Origin: Cenococcum geophilum 1.58
Lineage: Eukaryota > Ascomycota > Dothideomycetes > Gloniales > Gloniaceae
Reading direction: 5' to 3'
Assembly: GCA_001692895.1 (NCBI GenBank)
Contig: KV748176.1
Coordinates: 310,001-374,000 of the forward strand
DNA: 64,000 nt
Positions 11,284 through 64,000 of this stretch are shown piece after piece; within the stretch, counting starts at the first letter, position 1; every line of letters begins with the position of its first letter. The notes beneath the pieces were generated by a model that worked only from the letters and a program-made list of their open reading frames with translations, had not been told where the DNA came from and made no database searches. The position numbers were made by a program, and so were the translations under genes.

Positions 11284-11325
11284 AGCAAGTACGTATCTCC
11301 TAATCTATACGCGCTCACTAATTAG

Positions 11326-29560: not shown

Positions 29561-29812
29561 TGTAACCGACTACCGACACTGCTAAGACACAAGATTACCG
29601 CTTGGAAGGCTCTAAGACAGCGTCAACACCACCCTATATATTAATTGCAGATCAATATTACTTACAGATCACTATTCCCATTTCAGTTACCTATTACCCT
29701 TTTATGTCTTATTACCTCTACCTTCTTCGTATATATATATAGAGGCTTTAGAGCTACATTTACAATTAAGTCGTTTATTTAATTTACTATACTATAAAGC
29801 TTATAGTTATAA
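29561..29812 (+). repeat. Probable 5' LTR of Q
   Basis: Starts tgtaaccgactaccgac and ends near ttatagttata, just before aagcccggaccgcaccacc, which may be the primer-binding region. The 3' LTR lies outside the window, so the borders are not confirmed. Confidence 0.4.
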
Positions 29813-32070
29813 GCCCGGACCGCACCACCTACTAAGCAATTAATCTACTACCTTATTTAAGAAGTTACTACTTTTACCACCTTTATAGTATCTTAAGCTT
29901 CTTTACCTATTAAATAAACGGATAATTAACCTTAACTAATAACTATATAACTAACCAATGAACGAACTAACAAATTAAATCAAAAGTTTAAAACGTTAAA
30001 ATAAGGTTTTTACTAAGACGCTAATTGGACCCTACCTAACCTATTAAATTCTAAAAATAACAACTATTACTAAATTAAAAGTTAACCTTATCCTTAACCA
30101 GCCATCTAATTAGATTTAATAGTTCTTTATTATTTAAAACACAGCTAAAATAAATAAGGTATAGCAATATATCGACCCATTAAAGAAGGAAAAGGATCTT
30201 TTAATACTAGAACTACTAAGTTAACCTATACTAAGAGATGTACTACTAGCGGCTATATTAATAGCGAAGCTAGACCTAAATTAGCTTATCGCCTATAACC
30301 AGCTCTATTCTAAATACAAGGACGATCTTTAAATATATTAAAAGTAAGAATAGGCCATTAATAATATCAGTAACTATATTATACGAACAACGTCAGTAGC
30401 CTATGTTCCTCTTATTAATGGCCTAGATATAGTATACAGATGGCTATAAGCACTTAAGAGGGCTCTAGCTCCTACTACATTAGGTTAAAAGTATAACGTC
30501 CTTATTTAATATACGGCTTTAAAAGCCTACAATAAAAAGTAGAGTATTAATAAATAGTTAAACAACTAGCGGAACGTCTATAAGCTTACTAAGTAATTAG
30601 AACTACTAAATATATAAGGCTTTAGGCTACACTATAACTTTATTTAAGTAATTAAGCCTATCTCTTCTAGCTTTGCAGGAGCTCTAAAAGTAAACCTTAT
30701 TTATAAGGAACGCAAGGACAAAGAAGCCCTATCTATTATTAACCTAATTAAAGAATTTAAGGAGCACTACCATATATAGCAAGTAGCATTATTATCTACT
30801 ACTGCTAATAGCTCTGCCTTTATAACCCTATAAGGCAATTCTAATTCTAATTTAAATTCTAACCCTAATGTAAATTCTAATTTAAAATGGTATAAGAAAT
30901 GCATTTACAGTTATAAACATCAATACAGCAACTGCTACTATATCGCTGAGTAGAAGCGCCCTTAAGGGTAAAAACTAAGGCTAGACGTCCTTAAGAAAAT
31001 AGAAGAAATAATATCTTCTATACCCTAGGTTAGACGTATAGTTAACCACATTTAAAAAGAAGAATAGGAAGTAAAGAGTATAGAATTTATAATTAATTTT
31101 AATTCTAAAACCCTACTATCTAAGACCCCAACTAGCTATACTGCCGTATTTAGTACTAGTTAATTTCTATTTAAACTTTAGAATACCTAGATACTTAACC
31201 CTAGTATAGATACCTACGTCTATAATAACTAAGAAGACTTTACCTTCTCCTACCTAGCTGTAGAGGATAACTACCTAATTACTAGTGGAAATTTAAAAAA
31301 TATATAAGCCTACAGAATAGTAACCATTACTATTAACACACCTACTAGGAAGTTAAAAATAAAGCTATCCTATATAGCACTAGTACCTACTATATTTACA
31401 AATATTATAGCACTATTAAGGGCTACAGATAATAATATCTATTTTAACTTAGGACGAAACTTACTCTACCGTTTAGTAACTAGCAAAATAGCATGCTATA
31501 TAAAATAACTAGGGGGCTATTAGGCGCTAATGCACAGACAGCCTAAGCCTATAAATATCCTAGATTTAATAACTTAATTAACCTTCTTAATAAGAAGATT
31601 TTAACTAGGTAGAATAGCCTATAAACTAGTTAGAGCTATAGCTACAAAATAGTATAAAATTCTAAGCTATATAGGACCTAACGCTATTAAGCAGCTTCCT
31701 AAGTATATTAATAGCGTAGAGCTTAAAGGACTAATTGACGAACGAGTACCGCTTAAAATTAAATATAAAGTCTGCTTATTAGCAAAGTATATGTAGTAGA
31801 TCTCTTAAAGACGAGAATATAAATATCTAGCTACTCAACCATTTAAACGGCTAGCATTTAATATTATTAGCCTTAAAGAACTAGGATATAACGGCGATAG
31901 ATATATTATATATTTCTATTATATATATTCTAAATTTAACTTTATATATACCGCCAAGAACAAAAACAAAGCTACTATCCTACCTACTATTCGCAAGACT
32001 TACCAGCTAATTAAAATACGATTCTATTAAGACGTTGTCTTCTTCTAAAGTAATAATTAGGCATAGCAGT

Positions 32071-32178
32071 AAGCCTTTTAAGTCTTCTAACAACCTTAGA
32101 CTTAAATTAAATTGCTTGGCGCTTTAAAATCATTGAATTAAATTAACTCGGGCTAGTTCCGGAAGATTTAAAAGGCTT
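32071..32178. repeat. Subterminal inverted repeat at the hAT left end
   Basis: aagccttttaagtcttc (32071-32087) and gaagatttaaaaggctt (32162-32178) pair with one mismatch across 74 bases. The right end of the hAT has related text (aattcgggcttaattggaag), so this is likely part of the subterminal structure where transposase binds rather than a separate element. Confidence 0.5.
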
Positions 32179-32646
32179 AAATTGTTAAGATAGTATATAT
32201 AATCTCTATACAAAGTCTTAGTATAATGTAGCAACTAAAAGTCGTCTAATTCGCCTAAATCTTGCCCGCAGAGCCTTTACATAAGCCCCTCTGTGTAGGT
32301 CCTCTGTGTAGCGCCGCTGGCTATAAGAGGAAATCCGCAATATATAATATTACTAGCGTAGTGTTAAGGTTTCGATGGTAGGATCGAGTCGTTATCTGCC
32401 ATCTATTAGTCCTCTATTCATTACTAAAGCCGTTTTATATCTACTTACTAACCTTAGCGGCTTATATTAATAACGCCGTTCTTATCCTATTGCCCTAAAC
32501 ATATAGCAGCACCAATTACGTTAGCTTTAAGCCTTGCCTTATTCGGCCGCACTATATTTCCAGTAACACTAAACACTTATTCTAGCTTATCGCTTATTAC
32601 TAATGCACTAAATTAATTAATCGCGAAGCGTAAGAGGCGTGGATAG

Positions 32647-32948
32647 TGTAACGGGACTAGCCTAGTTATAGTAGGAATGTCTTGGTGAAACACTTGACAG
32701 ACGAATTCCGACGCTTTGACCGAATTCTGCCAGATTAATCGAATTACCGAAGTCCGTCGAAGACCGCGTGCGTATATGCGCACGCATTAACCACCAAGCC
32801 CCTAACTATTTAATTATATAATTCTCTTATTATTCCCTTCTCTTCTTTACGCAATGTCTTGTTCTTAGCAAGAGCTATATACCCTTAGATTTAGATAGAA
32901 TTTATATTATTCCTTCGAATCTTCCCAAAGTCTCTCCACGCCCTTATA
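32647..32948 (+). repeat. 5' LTR of D
   Basis: 302 bp, tgtaacgggactagcc to gcgcccttata. Same length as the 3' LTR, with differences almost only C/T and G/A. Confidence 0.92.
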
Positions 32949-35900
32949 TTACGTTGTGTTAATACTAATACCCTTAAAATGGCAAACGAACTTAAATCCG
33001 CCACGATAACTATTATAGCCCTAGTTAGGGAATAAATAACTATAATGTAATAGTCCTTTATAGATGCCTTAGCCCAGCAACAAACTATACTAGAAGCTTA
33101 GTATTAGCAATCAATTAAAGTAATATATAAAGAACTCTATAACGCTAAAGTACTTGTGTTAAAGACCCTAATAGCAACACCTGTAAATAAAATTAAAATA
33201 ACTATATGTAAACCTAACCTGTTAAATATAAACCCTAAACTAGTAACGGCAACTTAACCTATACCTATAATAAACCTAGTGCCTACTACGAAATCTAAAA
33301 AGCTCCCTAACCCTCTAATGTTTAATAGAAATTAAAATAACCTATATCCCTTTATAACTAAGCTCTATTTTAAACTTTTAATAAATTATAACTAATACCC
33401 TACTAAAGCTAGTAAGATTAGCTATGGAATATCTTGTTTAAGTAAAGACGCTACACGAACTATAGACCCATTCTTCTATAACGGCACCTTTATTAATTTT
33501 AAAATCTTTATCTCTCTACTAGAACAAATATATAATAACGCTAGCCGCGAATATATAGCTGTTACTAAATTTAAAAACCTATAATAACGGAACCGAGACT
33601 TTACTAGCTTCTTTTTGGAATTTTTAGGCCTTATTAGTGAACTAGATTAAAATAAAGCCGCTAGAGTTACTGCTCTCCGTTAAGCTATTTTAGATAAAAT
33701 TAGAGCATAGTTAGTAGGTAGAGAACTACTAAAGGACTTACCCAAATTTACTATAATATATTAACGAATTAATAAGGACCTTTAATATAACAAATAAACT
33801 TATTCCCTAAAGCCAACTATACTTTATATTTAAAACTCCACGAAACTAATATATACCCTAAAGCGCGACCCGTCTCTAAGACCTAAAAGCCCTATATATA
33901 ACCCTATAGACCTTAACGCTACTTAATTCTATGCACCCTTAAGAACTAATAAACGAAAAACACAAGCCGTAAATAGAGAATGTTTTAAATATAGAAAAAA
34001 GGGATATATTTAAAGGGATTGCCAAACTTACCCTTTTAAAAAAGTCCGCCGTAGCTCCTCTTAGTCCTTAAGTCGCACTTATTTTATAAATTATACTTAG
34101 TTGCCATAAAGCATCTTACCTTTAGTTAATTTGGAAAACGAATTATCCTAAGACTAAGTCGCGCCTTAGGATAAGAAGTAGAAGAGTATAAGTGTCTAGG
34201 CTCTTCTAGCGCTAATATATAACACGACTCCCTTAATATACTTAGCGAAATTTAAATACTTAGAAAATAGAAGGAAGTATAAATCCTTATAAATAGCGGA
34301 GCTACTAGTATAGGCTTTATTAATACGAACTACGTAAAAACTTAACGCTTAAATTTAAAGAAACTTAATAAGCCCTAAGGCCTATAAGGCTTTAATAGTA
34401 AGCCTTTAATATACGGCGAATTAACATACTACGCTCTTATAAAGATACGGATAGGCAAATACCTTAAATACGTTTCCCTATTTATAATACCCTTAAAGTA
34501 TTATAAGGTAATACTTAGATATAGATAGCTAAAACAATACAACCCTTTAATTAGCTAGGTTAAAGAAATACTAAAATTCCGTATAACCTACTGCCGAAGT
34601 TATTACTTAAAATACTACTTACCCTACAAATATGCACACAACTATTTAAATTTAATATAATATAAATTACCCTTACTATAAACCTTAAACCAATATAATA
34701 AAGGTATAACTGCTAATTGTGGTAAAGAATGCGAAGATAATATATTAAAACCCCTTAAAATTTATATAGTATAAGCCGTACCCTTTTACTTATTAGTAAG
34801 AAAATAAGACTATAAGATCTTTGCTATAATACTAAAAGACATTAAGAAAGCGTTGGAACTAAAGCAATATATTAACCCTCGACCCCTTATACCTAAAGAA
34901 TATTACAATCTAATTAATACGTTTAAGAAACAATTTATAGACTAACTACCCCCGTATTAAGACGAGCACGATTTTAAGATAGAACTTAAACCTAGTATAA
35001 TGCTAAAGTTCGGCCCGTTATACGGTATGTTATAAGAAGAACTGCTTATAATATAATAATACCTTAAAGAGCACCTAGAGAAAGGATTTATTCGCCCTAA
35101 TTAATTACTATTCGCCTTACCTATATTATTTATTAAGAAACCTAAAGGAGGCTTAAGGTTCTATATTAATTATTAAGCCCTAAATGCGATTACGATTTAA
35201 AACTAATATCCAATTCCTCTGCTTTAAGAAACGCTTAACCGCTTAGTAAAAGTATAATACTTTACAAAGCTTAACGTAGTCGCTGCCTTTAATTAAATCC
35301 GTGTTTATGAAGGAGATAAGAAGTATACGGCTTTCCGTATATAATGGGGACTTTTTAAATACCTAGTAATGCCGTTTAGTGTAAAAAACGGTCCTAATAC
35401 GTTTTAGTAATATATTAACGATATACTTCGCGAATTCCTTAATATATTTGTTACCGCGTATATTAATAATATCTTAATTTACTTGTCTTTGCTTTCTAAG
35501 CATTGGAAGCACGTCTAATTAGTTCTTAAACGCCTATAAGACGCGGGCTTATAATGTAATATTAAGAAATACAAGTTCTATGCGTCCGAAGTTATATACT
35601 TAGGCCTAATTATATCCCATAATGGAATTAAAATAGACCCTAAGAAAATCGCTATAATTATAAACTGGGAAAGTTCTAGTAGTGTATAAAACATCTAAGG
35701 ATTTTTAGGATTCGTAAATTTCTACCGTCGATTTATTAATTACTTCTTAAAAATTATTTAGCTATTAGTAAACTTAATAAGGAAGAATATAAGATTTAAA
35801 TAGACTACTAAATGTAAATAAGCTTTTAACGACCTAAAATATTGTTTTATAACTGCTTTAATTTTTACCTACTTTAATCTAGACCTTAAATACATCGTTA

Positions 35901-38028
35901 AAATAGACTCGTCTGATTATATACTAGGAGGAGTGTTATCGCAATATAATAAAAACGGCGAGCTGCGCCTAGTAGCCTTTCTCTCCTGGAAACTTACCCC
36001 TATTAAATTAAACTATAAGATATATAATAAGGAACTACTTATAATTGTTAGATGCTTTAAATAATGGCGTTTAGAACTTAAAGGATTGTTGTTCCTAATA
36101 CGCGTATTAACAGACTATAAAAACCTATAGTACTTTATAACTATAAAGCAATTAATATAGCGCTAAATTCGTTGGGCCGAATACCTCTTATAATTTAACT
36201 TTAAGATTATATACCGACCTAGTAAACTTAATTAGAAGCCTAACTTATTAATATAACAATTATAGGACTTACCTATAAACGCCTTTAATAAACGGATTAT
36301 AAATTAATTGTGAATTCTACTACCTTCTAAACGCTTTAAGAAACTACGCCCTATGTTTTTAGACGCGGAGCTTAATAGAAATAAATTGGAAATTAATAAG
36401 TGGGATATAGAAATTAATAAATTAATAGAGCACGAATATAAGAACAACCCCTAGATAGTAGATATAATAAAAGCGATTTAAATAGGGAAAAGGCAATATA
36501 AGGATATTACACTCGCTAAATGCAAAATCCGCAATAATTGGTTATACTATTAATAGAAGATTGTAGTCCCGAATTCCAAACCCTTATAATTTAAAATACT
36601 CGAATTCGTATATAATTCCCCTATAGTAGGGTATTCTGGCTATATAAAGACCTATAAGATTATCTAACGAGCATATTACTAGCCTATAATGCACGACTAT
36701 ATACGAAAATACATTTAAGTATACAGAATGTGCGTATGTGGGAAGACCTCTTATGTGAAGAAGTAAGGAGTACTTTAACTGTTGCTAATTTTAATGTAAA
36801 GATAGCGAGATATTTTTATTAACTTTATAGTTAACCTGCCTAATAGTAATAGGTTTATAAATGTTATAGTAGTTATTAACTATTTTATAAAAATGCGACA
36901 TATAATTCCTATAGACTCTATTAATACAATATTAGTAGCCGAATGTTTTATTAAGTACGTCTTTAAGCTATACGGACTTTTTAATTTAATAATATCCAAC
37001 CGCGGAAGCTAGTTCGTTTTAGACTTCTAGTAAGCCCTATATAAATAATTAAGTATATAAATACGACTCTTAACTATATTTTATTTAGAGATAAATAGTT
37101 AAACTAAAATTGCGAACGCGATTATAGAATAATACCTATAAATATACTGCTCCTACCTATAAGACGACTAGAAAAAGTGGCTACTATTAACTAAGTTTAC
37201 TGTGAATAATACGAGAAACGAATTAATAGGCGTAACGCCGTTCTACGCAACCTACGGATAAGACCCTTAACTTAGATTTAAACTATAACCCGAAATTAAT
37301 ATAATAGGACCTATAATTAAGAGAATTTAACTAATTAACGTATATAACTTTGCTAATTAAATAAAGTAGTTAACGGAACTATTATAAAGTAAATTAGCGT
37401 ACGCTTAAACGGTATAGAAATAGCATATAAATAAAGGACGAGCTCCCGTGTGGGACTTTAAGGAAGGTAATATAGTTTACTTAAATATACGAAACCTAAA
37501 GACTTAATAACCCTTAAAGAAACTAGACTGGAAGTTTACGGGCCTATACTAAGTTAAGAAGAAACTAAGCCTATACGCTTATAAACTTAAACTACTAACT
37601 AAGATAAAAATATATCTAACGTTTTACGTAAACTTGCTATAACCCTTAAAGGGTAAACCTATAACTCGCGAAGTACTACTACTACCTTCCGTAATTGTTA
37701 ATAACGGTAATAGCTTTTACTTTATTAACTTAATTAACAATATACAATAGAAGATATAATCTAAATAATTTAAACTTCTTATTAAATGGGAAGGATATAA
37801 AATATAAACTTAGGAAACCTATAACCAGATTAAGACTGACGCGCCTTCCTTAGTAAAAGAATTCCATAAAGACCATCCTTTATAGCCTACTTTGGCTGGA
37901 TGGACACGATATAAAAGTAAATAATTGCTACCTAACACGAATATATAAAACACGATAGTAGGAAGCTTGAAATTAAAAAGAACTTAAAATACGTTATAAC
38001 GTTTATAATACGATTACGTAATACATAA

Positions 38029-38190
38029 GATATTAAGGAACTTTAACCACTGGTTAAAGTTGTCTAATTGGTTAGATCTGCCTTACTAAGACCTACTGTA
38101 AAGATATTAGTTCTGCTTACCGCCTTAACTAAGCTAATAGCGATTTTCTATCCCGGGGATGGAAAATCCTAATTAACCTATTTAATAATA
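38029..38190 (+). repeat. Double-hairpin repeat in the 3' region of D
   Basis: Palindromes at 38039-38061 (aactttaacc / ggttaaagtt, one mismatch here) and 38142-38168 (gattttctatcc / ggatggaaaatc). Same order as in G and L, between the chromodomain and the 3' LTR. Confidence 0.7.
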
Positions 38191-38300
38191 GAATTGGCAA
38201 AACTCTATACTGCTATATAACGCGAAAATATAATACGCGATAAGTTATAAGTCTTAACTAAAATTAAATTATTTAGACCTTCGGCTAAAAGGGGGGGTAC

Positions 38301-38602
38301 TATAACGGGACTAGCCCAGTTATAGTAGGAATGTTTTAGTAAAACACTTAATAGACGAATTCCGACGCTTTAACCGAATTCTACTAGATTAATTGAATTA
38401 TCAAAGTCCGTTAAAGACCGCGTGTGTACGTATGCACGCATCGACCACTAAGCCCCTAACTATTTAATTATATAATTCTCTTATTATTCCCTTCTCTTCT
38501 TTACGCAACGTCTTGTTCTTAGCGAGAGCTATATACCCTTAGATTTAGATAGAATTTATATTATTCCTTTAAATCTTCTTAAAGTCTCTCCGCGCCCTTA
38601 TA
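38301..38602 (+). repeat. 3' LTR of D
   Basis: 302 bp, tataacgggactagcc to gcgcccttata, followed by gatag. Confidence 0.92.
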
Positions 38603-40123
38603 GATAGTTAATGCGGAGAGCCTACTAGTACTAAATTGGGTTAAAGACCTTCTTTTCCCTATATGGATTATTCTTTATCTAATCCTTATACTTATCGCGA
38701 GTCTTATTTTTATTAGAGTCGTCGCTAAAGCCTTTATTTAGGAAGGCTCTTAAGCCCTCCTCCTTGCGCCGCTAGCGATTAGCTAGCCGAGCTTTTTTAT
38801 CTATAGGTAGCTTTATATTCTTATACGTAGCCTATTACCCTTTAACGTGTTCCTCCGCAGTATTAATCTACTCCTACTTACTAGCCTATTTATCCTTAAT
38901 GTACTTCCATTTATATCGCGAGTAGAGGATAACTAAAGCGACGTAGGTAGCGCAGTTATTAGTAAGCTTATAGTACTTATTAAGCTTCTCCTATCTAAGC
39001 TAGAGACTAGCGTGGAAATAGGACTTAGGATTGTCCTTATATTAATGCACGAATTTATTAAGCCTTCCAATTAGGTAGAATATTAAGGGGGGGACCTCCT
39101 ATAGAGCGCCGTTTTTGCCTAATATTAGTAGTTAGTAGAAAGGTAATAAACGCTACTAAAGAAGCTTCCCTTAAGCAGCCCTACTTTCTAGAAGCTTAGT
39201 GGTTTCTTTAAGCGGCTTTAAGATTTATATATACTCTTTTAATATATCCCAATCCTTACGGCTTAACGCGTTATCTATAATTAACGGCTTCTTTTTACCT
39301 TTAGTTAGATAAGGCTTTATCCTATCCTTTATAACGCGCTTATAGTAGGCCTTCTACTCTTACTCCTCCTTTTTAATAAATACATTAATGGCCAACTTTA
39401 GGTGGATCGTCTAATTAATTATATCGTATATAGAGTTCTAGCGCGTGTTAATATTAAGGATAAGCTTCTAGCTAGTTTGTATAGTGCTACTTTTAATAGC
39501 TAACGGTATAGAGGTGCTAAAGATTTGCTAAAACTCTTCGAATTGCTATTTGCGCTATAAGGAAGTTAAGCTAATGTAGATAATAATATTATAAAGCTTT
39601 CTAATAGGGCCTTATTTCCGCCAGAGCTCCAGCTACTTAATCTTATCTTTAGCCTTCTCTAGTCTAGTTTATAATGCGTTTTTATCCTTTCTATAGGGAA
39701 TCGCTTAAGCTATAAAATTAATAATATGGCCCGCGTACTATAGTTAACGTTTTTTTACAGTTAAACTGGAGCTTCTCTATAGGTGTTATTATTTAACGCG
39801 TTATCCAGTATAAAGTGGCCCAGCTTATTACTAATATTAAACTCGGTAAGGATCGCGGCCACACTATTAGCAATATTAACCCTAGTATATCGGCTAGCGA
39901 GGTCTAGAATACTAAGTAAGAAGCTCTAATATTGCCTAGTATTATTAATAAAGTAAATAACAATTCTATAGAGACTTAGTAAGCTTTAAAAGGTCTATAT
40001 ATCTATAGAAATATAAATTCTACTATACACGCGCTTAAGCAACTTTATTACTACGCCTTTATACCGCTTAAAATCCTTATATATTTATTCGCGCAGTATA
40101 TTCCGGGTAGGAAGGACATATTT

Positions 40124-40350
40124 TATTAGCGACTTAGTTAATTAAGGCATAAGCATAGTAAGGGAGACGCGTAAGCCTATACGATTGGATTGTCTATAAA
40201 CGAGAATCTAAAGCTAGGGAAAGGAAAGGAGAAGGAGAGTAGCGCCGCTCAATGTTATATAAGATCTTCGCGTTACGTGACCGCAATATATGGCAATATA
40301 TGGCAACTTGCCAATGCGAAGATCTGCTAAGTTCTGCCAGTGCCGTAATA
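40124..40350 (-). repeat. 3' LTR of E
   Basis: 227 bp, tattagcgacttag to gtgccgtaata. Contains a CACGTGA-type word near 40275 followed by repeated ggcaat words. Confidence 0.92.
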
Positions 40351-43300
40351 TTACCCCCCCCCCCTTTAGTAAAGCCTGCCCTTAGGCTTTATGTGTCCGT
40401 ATTACTCCTATAAGGCGTTCTTATCTTTATATTCTTCCGGTAGCCTATTATCTTTACTATACTAGCACTCTATCCACTCGTCTAGGTACTTTAGGGGTCC
40501 TAGTTTATTAGGGTAATAGCTATAGAATTTTTAAAGCTTATAGGGACTGCTAATGAAGTTCTATATAGGGTACTAGGTAGGGTTTAGGTTATAGCCTTTC
40601 TAACTAACGCGGTACTTTAGCGTTTTCCTTACTAGTTTACAGGCTAGTACTTCTTTAATCTTCTATTTGTCGTCGCTACTAACTTAAATTAGTAGGGGAG
40701 GTTCGTTCTTTTGTCCGGGCAATAGGTTATTTATAGCTTTTTATAGCTTATCCGGCGAGAAAATAGGGTAAACCTTAATCAAATCTAGAAGCTCTACTTT
40801 GTATAAGTTATCTATCTTCTTAAGGACCTTATATAGTCTCGCTATCTAATAGTTTAGCTTATAGCTAAGCCGTTCCGTCTTTTAGTTCTTTATTATAACC
40901 TAGACTATATTACCTATAGTAAAGTTAGGTTCGCGCCTATGCTTATTTACCTACTGTGCTATTAATTTTTAGGCCTTTTCTAGATTTGTACGGGCTACCG
41001 TCTAGGCTTCCTCTAAGCGCTTAGCGTACTGCTAGGCTTTCTTATAAGACAGTTTCTTGCGTACAGTTTATAGTCCTTCTAGTCTATCCTAGTTAAAGCT
41101 TATTTAGGGTAAATACCCTATTTCTAGTTGGATAGGTGTAAATCCCGTAGAGTTATAGGGTAGGGTTACCTAGGCGTAGTCTATTAGGGGTAGTAGTTTA
41201 CCCTAGTTATTTTAGAAGTAGTTAATAAAAGGCCAGAGTCTCTAATCTAAATATTAATTTATAATCTCTGTCTAGCCGTCTATTTAGGGGCAGTATACTA
41301 TAAAGAGCTTTAGCCTAATACCTAGGATCTAGGTAAGCTCGTTCTAAAAGGCCAATATAAATTACGGGCTATAATTGGATACTATAGTATCTAGTGGTCC
41401 GTAAATGCAGTAGACGTAGTAGATATATAGTCGGGCCGCCTTCTTAGCATTAATATTCTTATAATAGGGAATTAAGAATAGGCGCTTACTAAAGCGGTTA
41501 ACTAGAATTATAACTATATTATATCCGTCGCGGTTTATAGGTAGCTTATAAAAGTCTATAGAGATATACTAATAGGGGTGGTTAGGTATTAAGAGAGGTT
41601 TTAATAATCCTAGGGTCTTATCTTGTGGAATTATAGACCTACGGCAGTTATTACAGTTCCGTATATAACGGTTAATATTTATAACTATTTCGGGCCAGTA
41701 GTAACGGTTACTAATAATCTTATAGGTCTTATTTTTTTAGGGTAGGCCGTAGAGACCTAGGTATATGCTTTAGTAATAAGCCGGGTTTATAAGTTCCGTT
41801 CCTCTACTACTACTAGCTATTTCTAGTGCTTAAGTAGTCCATTTTTAAGGGACTATAAGCTAGTAATATCCTTTACCTTTTTATGGTATTTCTGTAGAGA
41901 AGGGTCCGTACGGTTTATTTATAGTAGTTTATTAATAAGGTCGAATTCCATAGGGTTAATAGAATATATCTCGGCGCTTAGAGATTTAGTAATTAGTTCT
42001 TCCCATATCTAATGGTTAAGGTGCTTTAGTTATAGTAGCGTCTAGGTCCGTAATAAGATCTTCGCGGCTATCTAGTTATTTAAGTCTTATTTACGTCTTA
42101 TAAGAGCGTCCGCATAGTTAGTAGCGCCTAGCCTATATATAATTAGGAAGTTAAATTAGGATAGAATGTCTACCTAGTACGCTTACCGGGCTATAAGGGC
42201 CTTAGTTATTATAAAGTATTCTAGGGCCTTATAATCTAAAACTACCTAAATAGGCTTAGGGGTCCCTTTTAGCTATACTCGCCAGTGCTAAAAGCTAAAG
42301 ATAATAGCCAACATTTCTTTATTATGGATTGGGTAGTTTAGCTCAGCATTTATTATAGTCTTTAAGTAGTAAGTAATAGGGTGCTATTCTCTGTCCGTCT
42401 ACTTCTGGGAATAAACGCTAGCAATAATACTATCTAAGGCATCCGTTTCTAGCATTAAGGGCTATTTTAGGTTAAAGTAGGTAAGTAAGGGAGCGGAGAC
42501 CAGTCGTTTCTTAAGCTTATTAAAAGCCTACTTATATACGGTATTAAAGTAAAAGGGCTAGTCCTTTATGGTAAGGCGGCTAAGGGGCTAAGTAATTTTG
42601 CTGTAGTTTTTAATAAAGCGTTAGTAGAAGTTATAGAAGCCTAAGAATAACTATATCCCTTTTATAGTCTATAGTAGTTCTCACTAATTAATTACAGCCG
42701 TCTTTTCTAGGTTAGCCTTAATTCCGTCTATACTAATAATAAACCCTAAGTACTTTATACGCTTTATACTAAATTCTAAATTCTTAATATTAGCCTAGAG
42801 GCTAGCCTTATAAAGTTATTATAGAACCTTATAAACGTGCTCCTTATATTCTAACTCGTTCTTAGAGTAAATTATAATATTATCTAGGTAGGCTATATAG
42901 AAGTTATTAAGGTAGTTAAAGAGTATATCGTTTATATATCGTTGGTATATAGCCGGTCTATTAGTTAGTCTAAAAGGAAGTACTTTATATTTATATAATC
43001 TATATTAAGTCCGAAATATAGTAAGATTTATAGATTTAGGGTTTATTCTAATTTAGTAGAAAGCCTAACGGATATTAAGCTTTGTAAATATCTTAGCTCT
43101 ATTTATTTAGGCTAGTGTCTTATTAAGTAGGGGTAGCGGATAACGGTCTTTACGGGTTATATTATTAAGCTTATAGTAGTTAATATAGAAATAAAGTCCT
43201 CTATTTAGCTTTTTTGTAAAGAGAATAGGGGAGGTAAAAGGGCCTAGCTAGGCTTAATAAACCCCTTTACTAGGTTATTAATAAGGTACTACTTAGTAGC

Positions 43301-45769: not shown

Positions 45770-45996
45770 TATTAGCGACTTAGTTAATTAAGGTATAAGC
45801 ACGGTAAGGGTGACGCGCAAGCCTATATGATTAGATTGTCTATAAACGAAAATCTAAAGCTAGGGAATGAAAAGGAGAAGGAGAGTAGCGCCGCTCGATA
45901 TTATATAAGATCTTCGCGTCACGTGACCGCAATATGCGGCAATCTGTGGCAACTTGCTAGTGCGAAGATCTGCTAAGTTCTGCCAGTGCCGTAACA
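45770..45996 (-). repeat. 5' LTR of E
   Basis: 227 bp, tattagcgacttag to gtgccgtaaca, with tcacgtgaccgcaat at about 45919. Any open frame running through it is a chance opening. Confidence 0.92.
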
Positions 45997-47400: not shown

Positions 47401-47462
47401 AATTTAGTAGACCAGAAATATTCCAAAAGCTCACTTGCGTAGGTAGGTCGCTAATACCTCTC

Positions 47463-48342: not shown

Positions 48343-48767
48343 TGTAACGGAACCTTGTAGCAGGAACTATGGTAGGCTCGTCAATAGGCTAGGTGTGTAG
48401 GAAATGCAAGTATAAAAGTTAACAACGTAATAATAACTGGTGGAGTAGTTGCCTAACAGATTAACTCTAATTATATTCTAAGAATTACTATAAGGAAGGA
48501 ACTATCTAGGTAGGGACTAAGGGTCCTTAAATACACAACCATACTCCTATAAAATCCTTCTTATACGTAATATACGTCTTATACATAAGGTACGTAAGTT
48601 CCTCTCGTTCCTCCCGTTTAATATATAGCATATTATATAACCTCGGCTACTATTCCTTATTACATAGTTCTATCGGCTCTATCCTAGACCGTGCCTAAAT
48701 TAACCAACTAGCTTCTTCCGACTCTTCTCCTAGTAGTTATAGCATTGTACTTAAAGCGTCCGTAACA
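48343..48767 (-). repeat. 3' LTR of A'
   Basis: 425 bp, tgtaacggaaccttgtag to gcgtccgtaaca. Confidence 0.93.
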
Positions 48768-51700: not shown

Positions 51701-54700
51701 TTCTTCCTATAGTCTCTTTAAAACCCATTTAACGTGTTCCCCGTGTTCTTCCTTAGTCATTAAGTAGATAATAATGTCGTTAAGGTATACTATAACAAAT
51801 TTATCCAAGTATTCTCCTAATATATTATTAATACGCTTCTGGAATATTACTAGTGCGTTTATAAGCCTAAATTATATAACTAATAGTTTATATAGTCCTT
51901 CCTTTAACCTAAAGGCTGCCTTTTATTTATTGCCTTCCTTAATTCTAATCTAATAGTACGCTTATCTCAGATCTATCTTTATAAAGATTTACACGTTGCC
52001 TATTCTATTTTAGATTTTGCTAATTAAGGGTAAAGGATACCTATCCTTCCTAGTAATGCTGTTTAACTATCTATAGTTAATATACAGCCTTAGTTTGCTA
52101 TTTTTCTTTAGTATAAATAGTACTGGATATCCTACTAATAACTGCGATAGTCTGATATATCCCTTTTATAGATTTTCTTAAACAAACTCTTTTAGTACTC
52201 TATTTTCTTCTTTAGTAAGCTTATAGATTGGAAAGAACTTTGGACTTATTCCTAGTTCTAACTCTATCTTATAGTCCTATGCTGTATACTCTAATAGCTT
52301 TTTACTTTCCAGTGACTATAGTTTCTTGCTATATTTATGGTATCTCTTTAGTATATAACTTAGTCCTTTTTCTGTTTCTTTATAGGTCGCTCCTACTTAG
52401 TATTATACTAACTTGGCTTATTATTATATCTTACGGCGTTAAGTATCCCTAATATTAACCTGACCTATAATCCAATCGATCCTTAGATTATACTCCTATA
52501 ACTAAGACATTCCTAATACTGCCTCGTTCTGTCCTAATGGTAGGATATCAAAAGACATCTTAATTCGTCTTCCTTTAATAGTTATCTAAATAGGTTCTAT
52601 TTTAAGATTAATAATCCCTCCTCCGTAGGTTATTAGATCTCCTAAAATTATAACTAATAGGTAAAGTTCCTCCTTTTGTTTATAAGGCAATCCCATTCTT
52701 TTAACTACTGCTAGTAAGATATGGTTTCTTATTGCTCCACTATCTATTAGCGCTTTAAACTGTTAATCTTATTATTTAACTTATAAATTTAGGTACCGTC
52801 CTTGAATTCCTTTAAGGGTCTAAGGCTCTACTACTGGCTCCCTCTAGTTCTGTAGGCCTTTACTTTTCCTAACTATTAGCTGCTTAATCCTTATACACTT
52901 AGCTCGCTCTTCGGCTAATGCCTAGTTCGCTTTTTATCTTTAATATACTATAGACACGTGTTTTCTAGGTATTTTTACTACTATTATCCGTCTAAGCATT
53001 CTTCTGTAAGAAATCTTCCTAGTTAAAGTACTAAACTTCCTTTCTCTTAAACCTTTGCTGGATGCCATCTATATATATATTTAGCATTCCTATACTATTA
53101 CTTATCCATTATCCAGTATATCCTTATAGGGTATTTCCAATTCTTTTTCTTTGGATTCTTATATATCTTATATATGTCGTCTATGTACGCGATCTATAAT
53201 AATGTGTGGTATACTAGGTGCTTTAGGTTAACTCTTAACTTATCTTTATCCTTAAGTTTAAACCTCTATTATGCTAATCTAAACGTTATAACTTTATTTA
53301 TAGGTACTAAAATATGTCTCTTATTTCTCTAGTCCTCTAAACGCTCCTCTAGATCCTTTAACGTTATAATTAAGGCTCCTTTAATGTAAGTTATAGCCTT
53401 TTCTATAATTAGGTAGTCCTAGATAACTTTCTCATCTAACTATATATAGAAATCTTCCTACTTATCGTTATGCCTTTGCCTATACTACTTTTGGTATAGC
53501 TACTAGAGTATATACGGCTTATCCGTAAGGAAGTATCTTCTTATTACTACGTCGTAACAGCTCTTTATGTGTCGTTCTTTAAACCTAGTTAGAATCCCTA
53601 GATCCTCTTTATCTTCTAGTTTAGTAAGCTACTTAGCTCTTAGTATACCTACTCTTAGCCTATTAATGATTCTTTATACTAGTGCTCTATCCTTTATACG
53701 TCCTAATATGCTAGATCTCTTATCTAGTTTCTGTTCTTACTATATGATAATTCTTTATCTAAACTCTTCTATAGTTTCTTTTAGTTTACACCTTACGCTC
53801 TAATCCTTAAAGTCTTCTTACTTCTTAATCTTGGTATTAACTTTTCGATCTTTAGTCCGAATACTATATTCTACTAGTAAATCTTCTAGGTTTATATATT
53901 CGTCTCCTAATCTAATTACTATTTGCGCCGCAGATTCTCTAATCTATAAAGAAGCTCCTTACCTCTTACTTATAGGTGTCCTAATTCGTACTCCGAATTC
54001 TTAATCCCTTAGATTCTTTAATCCCAAGCTTGCTTCTAACTTAAGCTTTGCTTTAGCCTTAGTCTAACTAGGCTTACTTAGTGTTCTTATCTCATCTTAA
54101 GAGTCTTAAATTTCACTCATCTCGTCTTAAGAATCTTGTGTCCTTAGGAAACTTCGTCCTAAGCTTATTCGTATATTACTAAACTAAGCCGTTACTCTGC
54201 TCCATTAGTTATCGTCTATTATAGGTCCTTAAGCTTACCTTATCTTATCTTAAGAATCTTAGTTATTTTTTATCTCGCTATAAGAATCTTAAGCTTTTAG
54301 CCTTTTGCCTTTATTAAGTGCCGAAGTAGTTCGCTATTCTACTTCTCTTACGTCTTATAAAGCGATAGACATCGTGTCTAGTGGGGTCTTAATCCCTACT
54401 AATATTCCCTATTCTATAGTGGAATTATCCTCTACCTTTAGTGTAACATCTCTAATGGCTGCGTGTTCCTAGTAAACCGCTCTTATTACCTTATCGTTAT
54501 AAAATGTTTTGCCTACGTTAAATTTATTATCCTTAATGTCCGATCTGCGAACTGGTTTATTGGTTCCTTTATATCCTATAGGTGCTAGCTTTTATAGCCA
54601 ATAGCTTATACCGTACTTAGCGTCCTTATAAATTCGGTATATATTGTTATAACAAAATGTAAAACTTCTAATTAAACATTCTTTTGTTCCTTATAGCATA

Positions 54701-55861
54701 TTGTCGTCCCTCTATATATATATGTCGTCTACTAGTCTTATACCTTTTACTATATGGTAACTCTGCCTACTTCTACAGTCTCTAACGTAATAACCCTGTT
54801 TTCCGCAATTTATATAAGCTCCTTCTTTAAACCATTTTTCTTGCTATAGAGTCCGCCTAAATGTCTTCTACTATTAAGATCCCTAATTTGGCCTCTGCTC
54901 TTTAGACCTTTAATTACTTAATCCTTATCTCTAGGTTTCTATGGTTTGCTCCATCTCTTATAGGCTTCTTTAGTACTACTTAGGTCTATTAGCTCTACGC
55001 TATACCATAATTTCTAACTTAGCTTCTATTATTGCGTACTCTGCGCCTTATATAACTATAGAACTCTATCCTAACCTTTTTTAGCCTGTTCCCTTTGGTA
55101 GATCTAATTATTAATCTTAATCGCCTAATCTATTAGTTCCCTTAGGGTGTCCACATCTTCTATTAGAATAATTACGTCCTAGACTTTAGCCTTAAGTCCC
55201 TATTTATACTGTGCTATAAGCGCCCTATTATTCTACTTAACTTATATCGCTAACGTCTGGAACTGCGTTGTATACTTAATTACTAAGGTTTATTACATAA
55301 TGTCTTAGAGTTTTCTTTCTGCCGTAGTTACTGCCTTTGGGTCTCCAAATATTTATATAAGTTGTTTAACAAATCTATTCTAGCTTAAGAACATAAACCG
55401 TACCTCTTAGTTTGTAGTTATTATTCCGCTTACCTGAATTTCTGTTAGGTAAGGCTTAAACCATTTAAGTACTCTTCCTGTTAAGAATAATCCTGCATAT
55501 GCTATTTAATCTATAGGTATTACCAGCTTTGCTTCTTCCTATGCTACTTTAAAGTGCATTTACGTTAGGAATTCTTTAAGCTTTGATCTCTCTCCTAAAT
55601 ACCTTTTAATTAATAGTAACTTAACCTTTGCTGCGCCTATCCCATTAATCCTATTTTCTAACGTCGTATTATTTTCTATTAACTGGTTAACTATTTTTTA
55701 TAACTGTTTAACCGTTATAGGTTACTATAAGTTAGTGTCTGCTATACTGGTGTCGTTACCTAACCTTAATATAGTTGCTGCCGTTGATAGCGTTATAGTG
55801 GCTGCTTTTAGTAGCATGTTGTTCGACTTCTTATATTAATACCGTAATTAGGTAGTAATTG

Positions 55862-56286
55862 TGTAATAAAACCTTATAGCAGGAACTACGGTAGGCTCGT
55901 CAATGGGCTAGGTGTATAGGAAATATAAGTATAAAAGTTAACAACGTAATAACAACTGGTGGAGTGGTTGCCTAATAGATTAACTCTAATTATATTCTGA
56001 GAATTACTATAAGGAAGGAACTATCTAGGTAGGGACTAAGGGTCCTTAAATACATAACCGTACTTCTATAAAATCCTTCTTATACGTAATATACGTCTTA
56101 TATATAAGGTACGTAAGTTCCTCTCATTCCTCCCGTTTAATACGTAGTACATTATATGACCTCGACTACTATTCCTCGTTACATAGTTCTATCGGCTCCA
56201 TTCTGGACCGTGCCTAAATTAACCAACTAGCTTCTTCTGACTTTTCTCCTAGTAGTTGTAGTATTGTACTTAAAGCGTCTATAATA
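55862..56286 (-). repeat. 5' LTR of A'
   Basis: 425 bp, tgtaataaaaccttatag to gcgtctataata, followed by tctag. Same length as its partner; the differences I read are transitions. Confidence 0.93.
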
Positions 56287-59200
56287 TCTAGTAGGGAGAT
56301 ATAGAAGACTAGGTGGAGCTATACTATAGTAGGTAGGAGCTCTAGCTTATATACTTACTGCCCTACGCGCTTTAGGATCTAAAACAGTCCTATAAACTTA
56401 TAGTCAAGCTTTTTATAAGGACGTTTCGTGTGGATATTCTTGGAGGAGAGCAGGACTCGTTCACCGACGGCGAAATACTTAGCCAGATAGTGACGATTGT
56501 AGTATTTTACCTAAAGCTTTTAGGCGTACATTATTAACGCCGCCGCTGCCTTATATATAAGGCGCAGGCGTTATAGGTACGTCTCTATAAGTTAGATATT
56601 TATTAATTTAGACCCCTCCCCACCTTACCGGGCGTTTTAAATACTGTCCAGAACTCTATCCGGGACGTTTAGTAGCTAGCTATAGGCAAGCTTAATAGGG
56701 GAACGCTTTATTATAGTATAGACCTTAGAGTTATAGGTAAAGGCTGCTTCTTTAAGTAGGGAGGCCTAATTAGACTATTTCCAGTTCCTAAATATATATA
56801 GGTATACCTTAAGCTCCTAGTTTTAACGCTCCGTCTAACTATCTATCTGCGGGTAGAATATAGTGCTAAGTTTACGTTAAACGCGAAGATAGTAGCATAT
56901 AGTGCTCTAGTACTCGCTTATAAATATACTACCCCTATTAGAGACAATATTATCTAGAGGCCCTATTTATATAAAGACTTTAAATAAGAGTTCTGCAAGT
57001 TACGTAGCATTAATTATCTTACGTACTAGATAGTAGCGCACTAGCTTTATAAAACGGTCTATAAGGACAAGGACGGAGTTATACTCTACGCTATTAGGAG
57101 TCTTAGACTCTAGGAGATCCGTAATAAAGTTAAGTAAATAATACCGCTAGGCTCGGGTGGGGGCCTAAAGAGGCTGCAGCTTACTATAGGGTTTATAGCG
57201 GCGCAATTTGGAGCGTTAGTAGGTATTATAATTATCTAGATATTTACGGAGGTCCTAGGTAAGGCCGTTCTAAGTATACTTTCGCGCGATTACCTTAAAG
57301 GTACGGTTAAAACTATAGTAGCCGCCCATAGGATCGTTATAATTCCGCTTAAGGATCTCCTATTATAGTAATATATAATTCGGCACCTAGACCTTATTAT
57401 TTTACCTTAGGAGTCCTTAATTATTAAGGGTGTAGTCCTTATTACTAGTAGGAACTTATTCCTAAGTTAACTAATTATATATAAAGTGTGTAAAGGCGTC
57501 CCTTTTTTATACTCCGCGAATAAAATTAACTAGTGACTTAGGGGGGTATTCTATAAACGCCGTTTCAGCTAAAGCAGCTACTACTACCTCTTGCCATAGC
57601 ACGAGACTTTACGTAAAGTTAGTGCTAGTAAGGTAATATATAATGCGTAGGTAACTTGCCGGGTTGTTATAGGGGACCGTAGCATAGGCTAAGGGGTCTT
57701 CCCTAGGGTTAAGCGCTATTAGGTTAGTTAAAGTGGTCTTAAAGAGAATAGTAGGACGCTCTAGTCCGCCGGCGCCAAGTTCGCGAGGGTCGCTTGTATA
57801 CTGCACGTATACTACTTACTAGTTTAGTATAATAGCACTAGGGCCGCCTATAAGGCCTATAACCCGCAACTTTTGCTATAATATAGGCAGCATAGTATTA
57901 AGGATTGTCCTTTTACTACTATCTTTAAAGCCTTTAGCATAATCCAGGCGCCAGGATAGTATATTAGTAGGATTTATCTTACCTAGCTTATATTTAATCT
58001 TAAAATTAAACTTAGCCAGTTTCTTAGCGTACTAGGCCTAATAAGTAGATAAGCTCTTAGTGGTTATAAAGTACCTAAGATTATTGTAATTATAGAGCAC
58101 GCGCGTTACATACGCGGCATATTTAAGGTAATGGCGCTATGTTTTAAAGCATTACACTATAGCGAGTAGTTCTTTATTATACATATTATACCGTATTTTT
58201 AGGCTAGTAAGCTTATAACTGCAATAGGCGATTAGGTACTAGTAGAGTTAATCTCCTTACCCTAAAGGCTGCAGAAGTATACCGCTATAGGCATAATTAG
58301 AAGCGTTAGTAATTACTATTAGGGGTAGATTAAGGTCGAAATGGCGAAATAGAGGAGCCTATATAAATACAGCGCGTAGCTTATAGAAAGCCTACTGCGC
58401 GTCGTCGGGCTAGGACTAGGGTTAATACTATTTAGTAGGCCCTTTTAACTTACGCTTCTTCTTCTTCTCCCTATCTAACGTTGGGTTATAATATACCTAT
58501 ATAAGATATACGTATAGGGGGTATACAGTATCCGAGTAGTTTTAGATAAATCGCCTATAGAAGTTAGCAAAGCTAAGGAAGACCTAAATGTCCCTATAGG
58601 ACTTAGGCTTAGGCTATTCCTTAATAGCTTTTACGCGGTTAGGGTCCATTATAATACCCCTAGGGGTAATAATAAAGCCTAGGAACTTAACGTTCTTAGT
58701 ATAAAAGATATATTTTAATAGTTTGGCGTATAGGCCTTAAGCGCGGAGCTGTCGTAGTACCTACTTAACGTGCTTAACATACTTATCCTTATTATTTAAG
58801 TAGATAAGAATATTATCTAGGTAAACTATATAGATAGTATCTACTAGGGTTCCTAGAGCTTTATAAATATAGCTCTAGAAAGTCGTAGGGGTGTTAATAA
58901 AACTAAAGGGCATTACTAGGTACTTAAAGTAACTATAACGTGTCTTAAATACGGTCTTTCATTCGTCTCCCTTTTTAATACAAATCCTATAGTACGCATC
59001 ACGAAGATCTAGCTTTATAAATATCTTCGCATAGCTAAGCCTATTAAAGAGTTCGCTGACCAGCGGTAGGGGGTACCGATTTTTAATCGTGATCTTATTT
59101 AGGCGTCTATAGTCAACGCATAGCCGCATTATACCGTCTGCTTTCGGCATGAAGAGGATAGGCGCTTTAGTAGGCGACTTATTAGGCCTAATCCAGCCCT

Positions 59201-61502
59201 TTCTAAGAGCACTGTCTAGGTACTTTTATAAGATCTACAACTCTTTCTATAAGAGGTTGTAGAGGGGCATTTACAGTAGCGTCTTGCCTTCTTTTAAGTC
59301 GATTATATAGTTATACTCAGAGTTCTACAGTAGCATGCTTGCTAGCTTATTAGAAAAGATATTAATTTCCTCCTTATATATATCTGGCAGGCTAGGGGCT
59401 ATAGAGGTTAAAGCAACTATTATATAGTAGTGTACTTCCAGAAGCTAGTGAAGAGAAGAGTATAGCCGATATGCGTTTTGTAGGTATGCTCGTATTAAGA
59501 GTATATATAGCTCTGCTGCAGTATACTTAATAGTTTTAGGGTTTTAATTACCTCCCCCTTATATATAGGTAATCTACGCCAGCACCAGAGGGTCTCTATA
59601 GGTACTCGCTGCCGGTAACAGTAGGTCCTCTACTATGTTTATAACCGGTGTCTCTATATCTAGAGGGTCTGTATAGGTACTCGCTGCCAGTAATAACAGG
59701 TCCTCTATTATATTTATAACTGGCGTAAAGAAGGAGTCTTCTAGCTATAGCGAATAGACTATTTTGTCAGCCTTAATATCTACTAGAAGAGCGTTAAGGG
59801 TGACTATTTAGAGGCGTCTGGGGTCTAAAGTACCCTAGATAAACTATTTAGAACGGAAGCTAATTAATAGATCTACTTCCGCGAGCCAATCCTATCTAAG
59901 AACTATATTATAACTATTAAATAAGCCGCCCTAAAAGGTCTGCGGGCTAATAGTGCGAGAGGTACCCTAGAAGTCGCTAGTGGTAACTATTAGATTATAA
60001 GCATCCTAGATTATTATCTAGTTGCTATTAAGGAAACGTATAATAGGTTTATATAAATATAGCGTATAGCGTATAGGCAGGTTAAACCTACGGACGATAT
60101 CTTAATTAATGAGGTTAATTTAGCACCTATTGTTATATAAAGTATATAGGCGGACTTCGCCCTAGGGTATATCTATTACGATGTATACCATAATATATTT
60201 CTTTTCTCCCTCTATATTAGGCCCTAGTTATAGTTAAGAAAGATGCGCTATTAGGGCTTTAGGTTTTCCAAAGCCTAAGCTAACTTCTCTTTATTAGCCT
60301 ACTTCCAGTATTTCTTACGGTGGCCGCCTACGGTCCTTTAACTTACTTGCATAGTACTAGTGTCCGGGGGGTCCCCTAAGCTATCCAGCTTTTAGGTAAT
60401 CTCCCTAGGAGTTTACTTAGAAAAGCGTCGCCCTTTTTAGGTTCTATTCCCTAAGCCTAACTCTATAGAGCCTGTGCTGCGACCACGCTTTATACGCGAT
60501 AATTTACCGCTACCACTTACGCGATCTTCCGTAAGCTTTGTGGTATTAAGCAATTACTCTATACAGCGGATTTCATTAAAGAGGTCTTTGGCGGTTCTTA
60601 CCTATTAGGCGAAGTTCTGGCAGAAGAGCTCTGCTTATAGGTGGGCTAGGAGATATAAGAACTAAAAGTCTACCTATTATTTAGGATTGATAAAAGGGGT
60701 ATATAAGAAGAGGTCCTCTAAGCTACGCATATGGGCTAGAAAGACGTTAAACCTCTAATTCTCCTTTATAACAGCTATATAATACGCTATAGCGTTATTA
60801 AAGCGTCTTACTATAGGGTTTCTAATCTAGTCTTAGACTATAGTCTTAAATTTATCCTATAGTAAAGGACCCTTGTCCTTAGTGCCTAACCGGCAATAAA
60901 CTAGTTAGGCGATTGTCTTCTCTTTTATAAGACCTTTAATGGCCTAGCGCGTGCGTCGCTTATAGTTATAGTTAGCGTTATTAACCTTAAATCGGTTCTT
61001 AACTGCGGCAATCCACCGGTTAAAATGCTATTAAGTAGTACCGCTAATATTGGGTAGTAACTTCTTAACCAGGGCGTTAAGATTTAATTAGTGTATACGT
61101 TTGCTATATAACTTATACTCTTCGCTAAAGAGGCGACGGGAGGGCTTTATTAAATTAATAATGCTCTATAAGTTAGCTATTTTCTTAGCTAGCTTATCTA
61201 GCTCCTTTATATTAGCGGTATTAGGTAAGACGCTAGTAACCTTACTAAGCTCCTATTAAGCCTAGGTATATAAGTTAAACTAGTCTTTAGCGTTCGTAGA
61301 TATCTAATCGTTTTAAGATTTAGAAAATGGCTTAAATGCTACTAGTGTGCTTCTAGCGGTTTCGTCTATACTAGATTTTAAGGCGTTTTACGATCACATC
61401 GCCAGCGTATTACCATTGGGTATAGGCGTCGGTTTTCTTTTCAGAGGCATTGTAGAAAAATTAAACCGGCTATCCTCCTAAGGGGATTAGTAAGGATTTG
61501 AA

Positions 61503-61727
61503 TGTAAGGTAAGGATATGGATAGGGAGTCTAATGATAGAACAATAGGTATATTGTATAGACAGAGACGAATCCTTAAGGGAAAAGGAGGAGTCTGTGTG
61601 CGAGGTAGGAAGGGTTTTCCCTAGGTATGTGCAGCGCACGTACCTTACGGGCGAGTTACCCCTGGGTTGCCCCAGGGTTGCCCATACCTTGCGGCTATAT
61701 AACTATCTACTTAGGTTTTACCTGACA
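61503..61727 (-). repeat. 5' LTR of L
   Basis: 225 bp, tgtaaggtaaggatatgg to ggttttacctgaca. The better preserved of the two copies. Confidence 0.92.
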
Positions 61728-64000
61728 AAAAACCTTACCTATTTTATTTAAACAATTTAAGCCGCCCTACCCCTTTGCACTAGAATTGTCGCCTAACGCT
61801 ACTTCGTAAATTGTATTGATTTGAATTAATTTATAATCAATTTAAGTCAATTCGGGCTTAATTGGAAGACTTACTGCTATGCCTGGTAATAATAAATATA
61901 TATTTAAATAAACCGAAGACATACTATAGACGTAATGCGTAGACGAAGGCATTACTTTTAAATGCTAAGCCCCGTATATTGAAGAACAAAATAGTAGAGC
62001 TAAATAATCTAGACGAACCCTTATAGAATAATTAAGTGCTATATAGCTAGAAGCTTCCTTACCCCTATCTCTAGGACTAGAGGCTTTCCTTACTACTAGC
62101 TATACACTTAATTAAACGCCAAATAAGTAACTAGGATGGAAAACTCCGTACGAGATCGCTTACGGCAAGCCGCTATTACTTACCTATATATATATATACG
62201 GCTGCAAAACCTATACACTAGATAAATAAATTAAAAGGGGAGATAAACTAGCTCCTTATATATTAATTAGACATCTAGTCGGCTATAATTTAACTAATAT
62301 CTATTAAATCTGGATTCTAAGTCTCCGCAAGGTTATTTAAACTAAAGACGTCATATTTAACGAGACCTTATTCTATAACCCTAAGGGTTAAGATATTAAC
62401 TACCTGCTAAGGGAAGCATTAGAAGACACTCTCTAGATAATTAGTCTACCAGAACCTCTCTATAAGGATAAATCTAAGGATAAATCTATTCTATATAGAC
62501 CTACCTTAAATATAAATTAAACGACTATACCTAAATCAAATAATGCGGTAGAGCCTTGTATAAAGGATACCAAGTAGTTACCAACTCCTAGCAGAATAGT
62601 ATCTCCAGATTTATTAGAAATAAATACTATACCAGAAGGACTTTAAGACGATATCTTAAATATAATTAAAATAACCCCTACCTAGCTAAGTTCGCTAGAG
62701 CTATTTAATATAGCTCTATAAGCTAATAAAGTCTTAGCTAAACCTTTTGCCAACCTTATCCTACTAAAAGGGTTAAAACGAATTTAACGTTAAGCGTATA
62801 TAGCAGCACTAGCCAATCTATCTACCCTATTTAATTACTACGCTGGCTTTATTATAGGACTAGTAAAGGATATTAACCAAACTAGATCCTTATCTCTATA
62901 TTAGGACAACCTTTCTCCTAAACTAAAGAATCTTAAAGATCTAAGAAAGCATCTATTAACTACTAGCTTCTAAAAAGCTATAGAAAAAGAATACAATAGC
63001 CTAAAACGTTAAGGGATATTTAAAATCGTACTAAAGGAAGAGGTAAGTAATAAGCAGATCCTTCTACTAAAATAGGTCTTTAAATATAAGCTTAATAGCA
63101 ACGGCTACCTATAAAAGCTTAAAGCTTAACTATATATCCGTAAAGACCTATAGATTACTAAAGAAGAGATCTATACAGTAACCCTAGCTGCTCGAATATT
63201 CCATACTCTTATAGCTATAGCAGCTGTATTTAATTTAGAAATTTAATAGTATAACGCTGTAAACGCGTTTATAAATGCTAAGCTTAGTAAACTAGTCTAC
63301 TGCTACTACCTAGAAGGATTTAATTAAAAAGGACATATCCTAAAGCTACTTATAGCGCTATACGGATTAAAAATCTCACTACTACTTTAGTATAAAAAGC
63401 TTACTAATACACTGTCTAAATTTAGATTAAAGCCTATCCTAGGTACTAACTGCCTATTTACTAATAAATAACTTATTATCTTCTTTTACGTAAACGATAT
63501 TGCCGTTTTATTTGCCAAAAAGGACCTTCTAAAACTAGAAGAATTTAAAGCCAAACTACTACACTAATACGAGATCCGTGTACTAGGAGACCTATAATAG
63601 TTCCTAGGTATTTAAATCAAACGAAATTAAGTAAGCAGGAAGCTCTGGCTCTGCTAAGACTCCTATATTAAAAAGATAGCCAATTAATTTAATATTTAAC
63701 TACTAGAAAGATTCCCTAAGTTACTATTTCCTAAAGAACTAATTCCATCTAACCAGCAGACAACCCCTTAAAGAACGCTAGCCTACTAGCAATAAGTAGG
63801 GTCACTTACACACCTTACCGTATTTAGAAAACCTAATATTACTAAGATGTATTCTAAGCTGGCCGAATTCCTAACTAATCTAAATTAAAAGCACCTTAAT
63901 ATAGCAAACTAAGCAATTACCTATTACCTTAGAACAAAATCTATAGCTATTAAATACTCTAGCGAAGTATTTAAAGCATATATCTACTTTAGAAACCCTA

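Follow-up and report, generated by a model that had tools for sequence, protein, structure and literature searches.

How a 5,527-bp copia retrotransposon came to be spread over 45,992 bp (46.0 kb), and in which order the mobile elements that now separate its parts arrived, is the question raised by a locus on contig KV748176.1 of Cenococcum geophilum 1.58 (assembly GCA_001692895.1; 177.19 Mb in 162 contigs). The window analysed is the 64,000-nucleotide stretch at contig positions 310001–374000, and the stack was followed from there along the contig; coordinates are given in window numbering, values above 64000 denoting the continuation to the right of the window. The elements are nested four levels deep: the copia element Q contains a hAT DNA transposon, the hAT contains the Gypsy element L, and L contains the Gypsy element A'. 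Two further Gypsy elements, D and E, also lie in the hAT. This arrangement had been proposed in a preliminary description of the window and is confirmed here by target duplications and by unoccupied insertion sites elsewhere in the genome. Ordinary successive transposition, followed by repeat-induced point mutation (RIP, C to T at CpA), is the best explanation of the whole, with a probability of roughly 0.96.

The boundaries of the layers are marked by direct duplications. Q lies on the plus strand from 29561 through the end of the window at 64000 and on to 75552, with long terminal repeats (LTRs) at 29561–29805 and 75310–75552, and is flanked by ATAAC at 29556–29560 and 75553–75557 (the right copy in locus L061, outside the window). 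The hAT occupies 32058–61885 as it lies (29,828 bp; transposase remains on the minus strand). Its ends, TAGGCATAGCAGTAAG and CAGGCATAGCAGTAAG, form short terminal inverted repeats with 15 of the first 16 bases agreeing, and the 8-bp duplication GTAATAAT, which fits the nTnnnnAn pattern, stands on both sides (32050–32057 and 61886–61893), a combination expected of hAT elements. If one copy of each guest duplication is counted, its own sequence amounts to 3,105 bp (32058–32646, 38608–40123, 46002–46848, and 61733–61885), in agreement with the 3.1-kb hAT spanning 29.8 kb of the preliminary description. Within it, D (32647–38602, plus strand; LTRs 32647–32948 and 38301–38602) is bordered by GATAG at 32642–32646 and 38603–38607, and E (40124–45996, minus strand; LTRs 40124–40350 and 45770–45996) by TATTT at 40119–40123 and 45997–46001. 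L as it lies (46849–61727, minus strand; LTRs 46849–47073 and 61503–61727) measures 14,879 bp, of which 6,930 bp are its own, and is bordered by AAAAA at 46844–46848 and 61728–61732. A' (48343–56286, minus strand; LTRs 48343–48767 and 55862–56286) has TCTAG at 48338–48342 and 56287–56291. All five duplications that had been listed for the junctions from the hAT inwards (hAT, D, E, L, and A') are thus present, the two copies of each being identical, while two random places in the stack would agree over 5 bp in about 0.26% and over 8 bp in about 0.009% of cases. The four Gypsy elements D, E, L, and A' have LTR pairs of 90–93% identity, found by comparison of the window with itself. LTR ends of the form TG..CA or CA-to-TA and the inverted repeats of the hAT occur together with identical duplications at all junctions, which shows insertion by each element's own machinery.

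Other genomic copies of the host elements provide a second line of evidence. The left and right flanks of each insertion were aligned separately, never joined, to 66 loci of the same genome besides the window's own. At an unoccupied site the two flanks are expected to overlap by the length of the duplication, and copies matching one flank were left out of the counts. For Q, scoring covered 40 of 957 and 40 of 350 candidates, and 36 other loci were retrieved. The hAT had 21 candidates, every one of which was scored, and the 20 other loci were retrieved. Of the 853 candidates for L, 40 were scored, and among the 39 other loci 5 were retrieved around the A' site. The hAT site in Q showed the exact 8-bp overlap in 34/34 copies with both flanks. 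Two of the 36 Q loci do not align across this site: the match of L006 ends at 31541, before the site, and L008 has one flank only, an A-family LTR starting a few bases from the position equivalent to the hAT insertion (about 3955–3960 in L008). The exact 5-bp overlap was found at the D site in 13/13 copies (one flank only in L021, L025, and L029), at the E site in 12/12 (one flank only in L022, L026, L027, and L028), and at the A' site in 5/5 copies of L. At the L site the 5-bp overlap is seen in L010, the sole copy that aligns up to the junction (1/1); the alignments of nine more distant copies stop short of it, and L011 matches the left side only. L010 is an entire hAT, uninterrupted through the D, E, and L sites. 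Unoccupied sites were therefore found for every junction from the hAT inwards within one genome, and the outcome that the preliminary description had named as its refutation, copies of the hAT or Q failing to align across the junctions, did not occur. The region is dense in dispersed repeats, and hence recombination between repeats, or misassembly, could in principle have juxtaposed these sequences instead of insertion; identical duplications at all junctions and overlaps of duplication length in every copy with both flanks at the hAT, D, E, and A' sites make such an origin highly improbable.

The stack continues beyond the window. Q-like sequence breaks off at 64,495, short of the end seen in other copies, and the tail and right LTR of Q resume further on and run to 75552, 11.6 kb to the right of the window end. 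The interruption at 64495–75119 (L060 and L061) is a further Gypsy element, M, which lies in the 3' part of Q and, with 10.6 kb, is the largest Gypsy element here. Its LTRs are 90–91% alike, and it is flanked by the 4-bp duplication ACAT. RNase H and the integrase zinc domain of M score over the cut-off, and RVT_1 lies below it (16.1 bits). At the M site, L035 and L057 match the left flank only. The preliminary description therefore holds for the part of the stack in the window and is incomplete for the remainder, this second insertion into Q and the end of Q, only because the window ends inside Q.

Containment and target duplications together make the order of insertion readable: Q, then the hAT, then D, E, and L, whose mutual order is left open, and A' after L. 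The unoccupied sites bear out the same order, as had been proposed. Q integrated first, generating the 5-bp duplication, and the hAT next entered the integrase-coding region of Q with its 8-bp duplication. D, E, and L then entered the hAT, and A' entered L between the SH3 stretch that ends the integrase and a chromodomain-like stretch. M entered the 3' part of Q. RIP would then have mutated the layers, as may be expected in a filamentous ascomycete.

The assignment of Q to copia rests on domain matches in Q itself and in its other copies. The copy L058 has a 500-codon open frame that runs through the unoccupied hAT site and contains Pol_BBD and SH3_retrovirus over the cut-off, with rve below it (17.5 of 32.6 bits). 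Because this frame with its integrase-region domains crosses the unoccupied site, the hAT can be placed in the integrase-coding region of Q. RVT_2 was found over the cut-off in the copy L042 and in the window at 63001–63600 (51.0 bits), so that Q has an integrase upstream of an RVT_2-type reverse transcriptase, the arrangement of Ty1/copia elements. As far as described in the available part of PMC5445492, which treats copia in filamentous ascomycetes, Cenococcum geophilum among them (RIP-like rated 'Probably'), the length of Q, its LTR of 245 bp, its TGT...CA ends, and its 5-bp duplication are within the ranges of the fungal GalEa lineage. According to the same part of that source, GalEa has QTDD in the reverse transcriptase; Q instead has FFYVNDI, a YVDD-type motif, and by this motif is not a fungal GalEa element. 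The excerpt also describes a Conserved Hairpin Site (CTGATCAGT, CTAATTAGT, or a derivative) directly after the left LTR of fungal GalEa. The left LTR of Q is followed by GTTATAAGC, which by eye shares 5 of 9 letters with CTGATCAGT and does not form a palindrome with the last A of the LTR.

An element around Q, which would have added a fifth level, was considered and rejected, as none of five retrieved copies matches the right flank of Q. Since a repeat in the left flank recurs inside other elements and the right flank is unmatched in these five copies, Q is the lowest demonstrable layer. The repeat in question (about 250 bp, at about 29270–29548) has copies in L065 and L066 inside other elements, the flanks of which overlap by 2 bp, the pattern left by a small DNA transposon that duplicates 2 bp of its target. 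Arrays of tandem and inverted repeats, related to one another, occur in the left half of the window at 12842–13233 and just to the right of Q at 75982–76267 (L061 and L062).

The hAT dimerisation domain (PF05699) is weak in the window piece (13.9 bits vs a cut-off of 21.4) and clear in a relative, where it reaches 43.2 bits at C7:547413–547625 and overlaps the L020 match at C7:545959–547455. The insertion site of D maps inside the dimerisation domain of this relative. The element classes assigned earlier were thus recovered: RVT_2 in Q, RVT_1 in D, E, L, and A', and for the hAT its duplication, its inverted repeats, and the dimerisation domain of the relative. All four Gypsy elements of the inner layers show RVT_1 followed by a gypsy-type RNase H, both over the cut-off, as expected of Ty3/gypsy elements. 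The remaining domains are more uneven. An integrase zinc match over the cut-off was found among these four in E only, there in a different frame from RNase H; D reaches 25.0 bits vs 25.5 and L 19.5 bits, and A' gave no such match. SH3_Tf2-1 lies just below the cut-off in D, reaches 29.6 bits vs a cut-off of 30 in A', and 43.5 bits in L, where it stops at the A' junction. A Chromo match of L (22.9 bits, E 7.9e-5) is located beyond A', at about 48124–48273, and A' therefore parts the integrase end of L from its chromodomain-like stretch. A chromodomain following the integrase is the feature by which the chromovirus branch of gypsy is recognised, and L is at most a candidate member. Plain gene calling is uninformative here, because only four stop-to-stop frames of at least 90 codons are present in 29561–64000. 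A search against Rfam at gathering thresholds gave no matches in 76 kb.

Three of the five Gypsy insertions lie in the 3.1-kb hAT, and the hAT might accordingly be a preferred target of Gypsy elements, rather than older layers having collected more insertions; if the seven elements were equally exposed, at least 3/5 would fall into the hAT with a chance of about 0.003 (the probabilities given here are hand arithmetic on element lengths). Older layers have been exposed for longer, so that equal exposure does not hold, and of the four Gypsy insertions into Q and the hAT, the two oldest layers (8.6 kb together), at least three would fall into the hAT with a chance of about 0.14. Every retrieved copy with both flanks is moreover unoccupied at the D and E sites, and a target preference of this kind is unlikely. 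One might speculate that the pile-up was helped by chromodomain-type Gypsy elements integrating into heterochromatin forming on mutated repeats. This conjecture takes up a single sub-threshold Chromo match, and target size and age alone also explain the pile-up.

Several points weigh against the account given so far. The Chromo match of L is just under the Pfam cut-off (25.1), that of A' reaches 13.1 bits only, and the domain search found no Chromo in D or E. The junction of L with the hAT is covered by one close copy, L010. The duplication of M is short, and its 4 bp would agree at random in about 0.8% of cases; the unoccupied M site is exact (4 bp) in 5/25 copies with both flanks, the others being length-variable there. 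Finally, the stack is known from assembled contig sequence alone, which leaves an assembly error at the junctions a small residual probability.

One further insertion was proposed and rejected. A palindromic block of D, L, and M could have been an extra small insertion, but two copies of D (L077 and L078) and two of L (L073 and L074) align straight through it, and the block therefore belongs to the D and L families; among the other copies checked, L075 aligned over 71 bp and L076 nowhere. A near-palindromic 33-bp motif, GGAACTTTAACCnnyGGTTAAAGTTnTCTAATT, lies at 25456–25488, in D at 38037–38069, and in L at 47239–47271, and is followed by a second hairpin, which matches M and the LTRs of B too. 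The motif runs with pol in D and against pol in L. With at most one mismatch it occurs at 2,201 places in the genome, and the reversed pattern at none; L073, L074, L077, and L078, which align across the block, lack the exact motif. RIP would be without a target in its fixed letters, because no CpA or TpG is among them. Another nested pair is seen at 5565–11576, where B (LTRs 5570–5813 and 11326–11569) sits within the right-hand LTR of the A copy in the left half of the window and has GGAAC on both sides.

The layers also permit a comparison of their known order with the divergence of their LTRs. TpA/ApT exceeds 1.5 in all layers in the window but the right hAT end (158 bp), where it is 1.20; the second RIP index is 0.31–0.73 across these layers and 1.0 in the right hAT end. 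Values of such size are typical of RIP for both indices. Seven LTR pairs (Q, D, E, L, A', M, and B) were compared over 1,944 sites. They differ by 165 transitions vs 3 transversions, all three of the latter in E. Among C/G sites whose two neighbours agree, the LTRs differ at 98 of 184 in CpA/TpG context and at 41 of the remaining 573 (odds ratio 14.8; nominal P = 4e-39 with sites treated as independent). C to T change at CpA in repeats and an excess of TpA, the two marks by which RIP was judged, were thus both found. This mutation pattern suggests that the layers were mutated by RIP after insertion, which would account for almost the entire LTR divergence. A similar bias is seen in five L copies over 47842–48337, with 144 transitions and 3 transversions in 1,854 sites; the second piece of L gave no countable match.

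Under an ordinary clock, LTR identities of 90–93% would mean that the layers are old and spread over a long time, the 8–10% divergence being their true age, and E with its three transversions in 227 sites fits that idea. Three observations render it quite improbable. The strong excess of transitions in the LTR pairs differs from the transition/transversion ratios of 1.4 to 2.4 in ten distant hAT copies of the same genome, the differences concentrate in CpA/TpG, and the Kimura two-parameter distances (Q 0.090, D 0.111, E 0.096, L 0.082, A' 0.093, and M 0.108) do not rank with the nesting, although single gaps such as that between L and A' are small. LTR divergence is a poor clock here because transitions make up nearly all of it. 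By transversions, copies of Q differ by about 1–5%, the close hAT copies L010 and L011 by 1.1–2.5%, the fragment L023 by 2.9%, and the ten distant hAT copies by 6.9–9.9%. From these levels it follows that the lower layers belong to families with an older spread, which fits the order. The LTR pairs indicate that the insertions themselves are recent on the relative scale of transversions. With respect to the order among D, E, and L, the 3/227 transversions of E vs 0/1,717 in the other six pairs (P = 0.0016, a contrast picked post hoc; E vs Q alone, P = 0.11) hint that E is older and settle nothing. That all four levels of the stack arose within a single short burst, with RIP then hitting all layers similarly, is an even bet.

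Nested insertions can be ordered with established approaches; REANNOTATE reportedly orders nested LTR retrotransposons. Plant LTR retrotransposons with elements within elements and an order taken from containment are described in the part of PMC6911290 at hand; the stack is alike in both respects and differs in that its genome is of fungal type, its sequence shows RIP-like decay, and its second layer is a DNA transposon. For Mycosphaerella graminicola, the accessible passages of PMC4522978 report nested insertions, mainly of LTR retrotransposons, clustered in gene-poor heterochromatic regions; there a distribution of fungal nested insertions was described, here a single stack is dissected. LTR divergence is not a plain clock for crapaud in Podospora, a fungus with RIP, as stated in an excerpt of PMC10787394, which points to gene conversion and diversifying selection; here RIP-type transitions dominate and an independent order is available from the nesting. 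Neither nested stacks nor RIP are new, and the stack is a clear new example of something ordinary in repeat-rich genomes rather than a new kind, unusually complete and legible. It offers a worked example of how insertions can be ordered without recourse to a clock, and because the order of layers is known independently, such stacks are a natural test of dating under RIP. It also warns that ages taken from LTR divergence in fungi affected by RIP may for the most part measure RIP.

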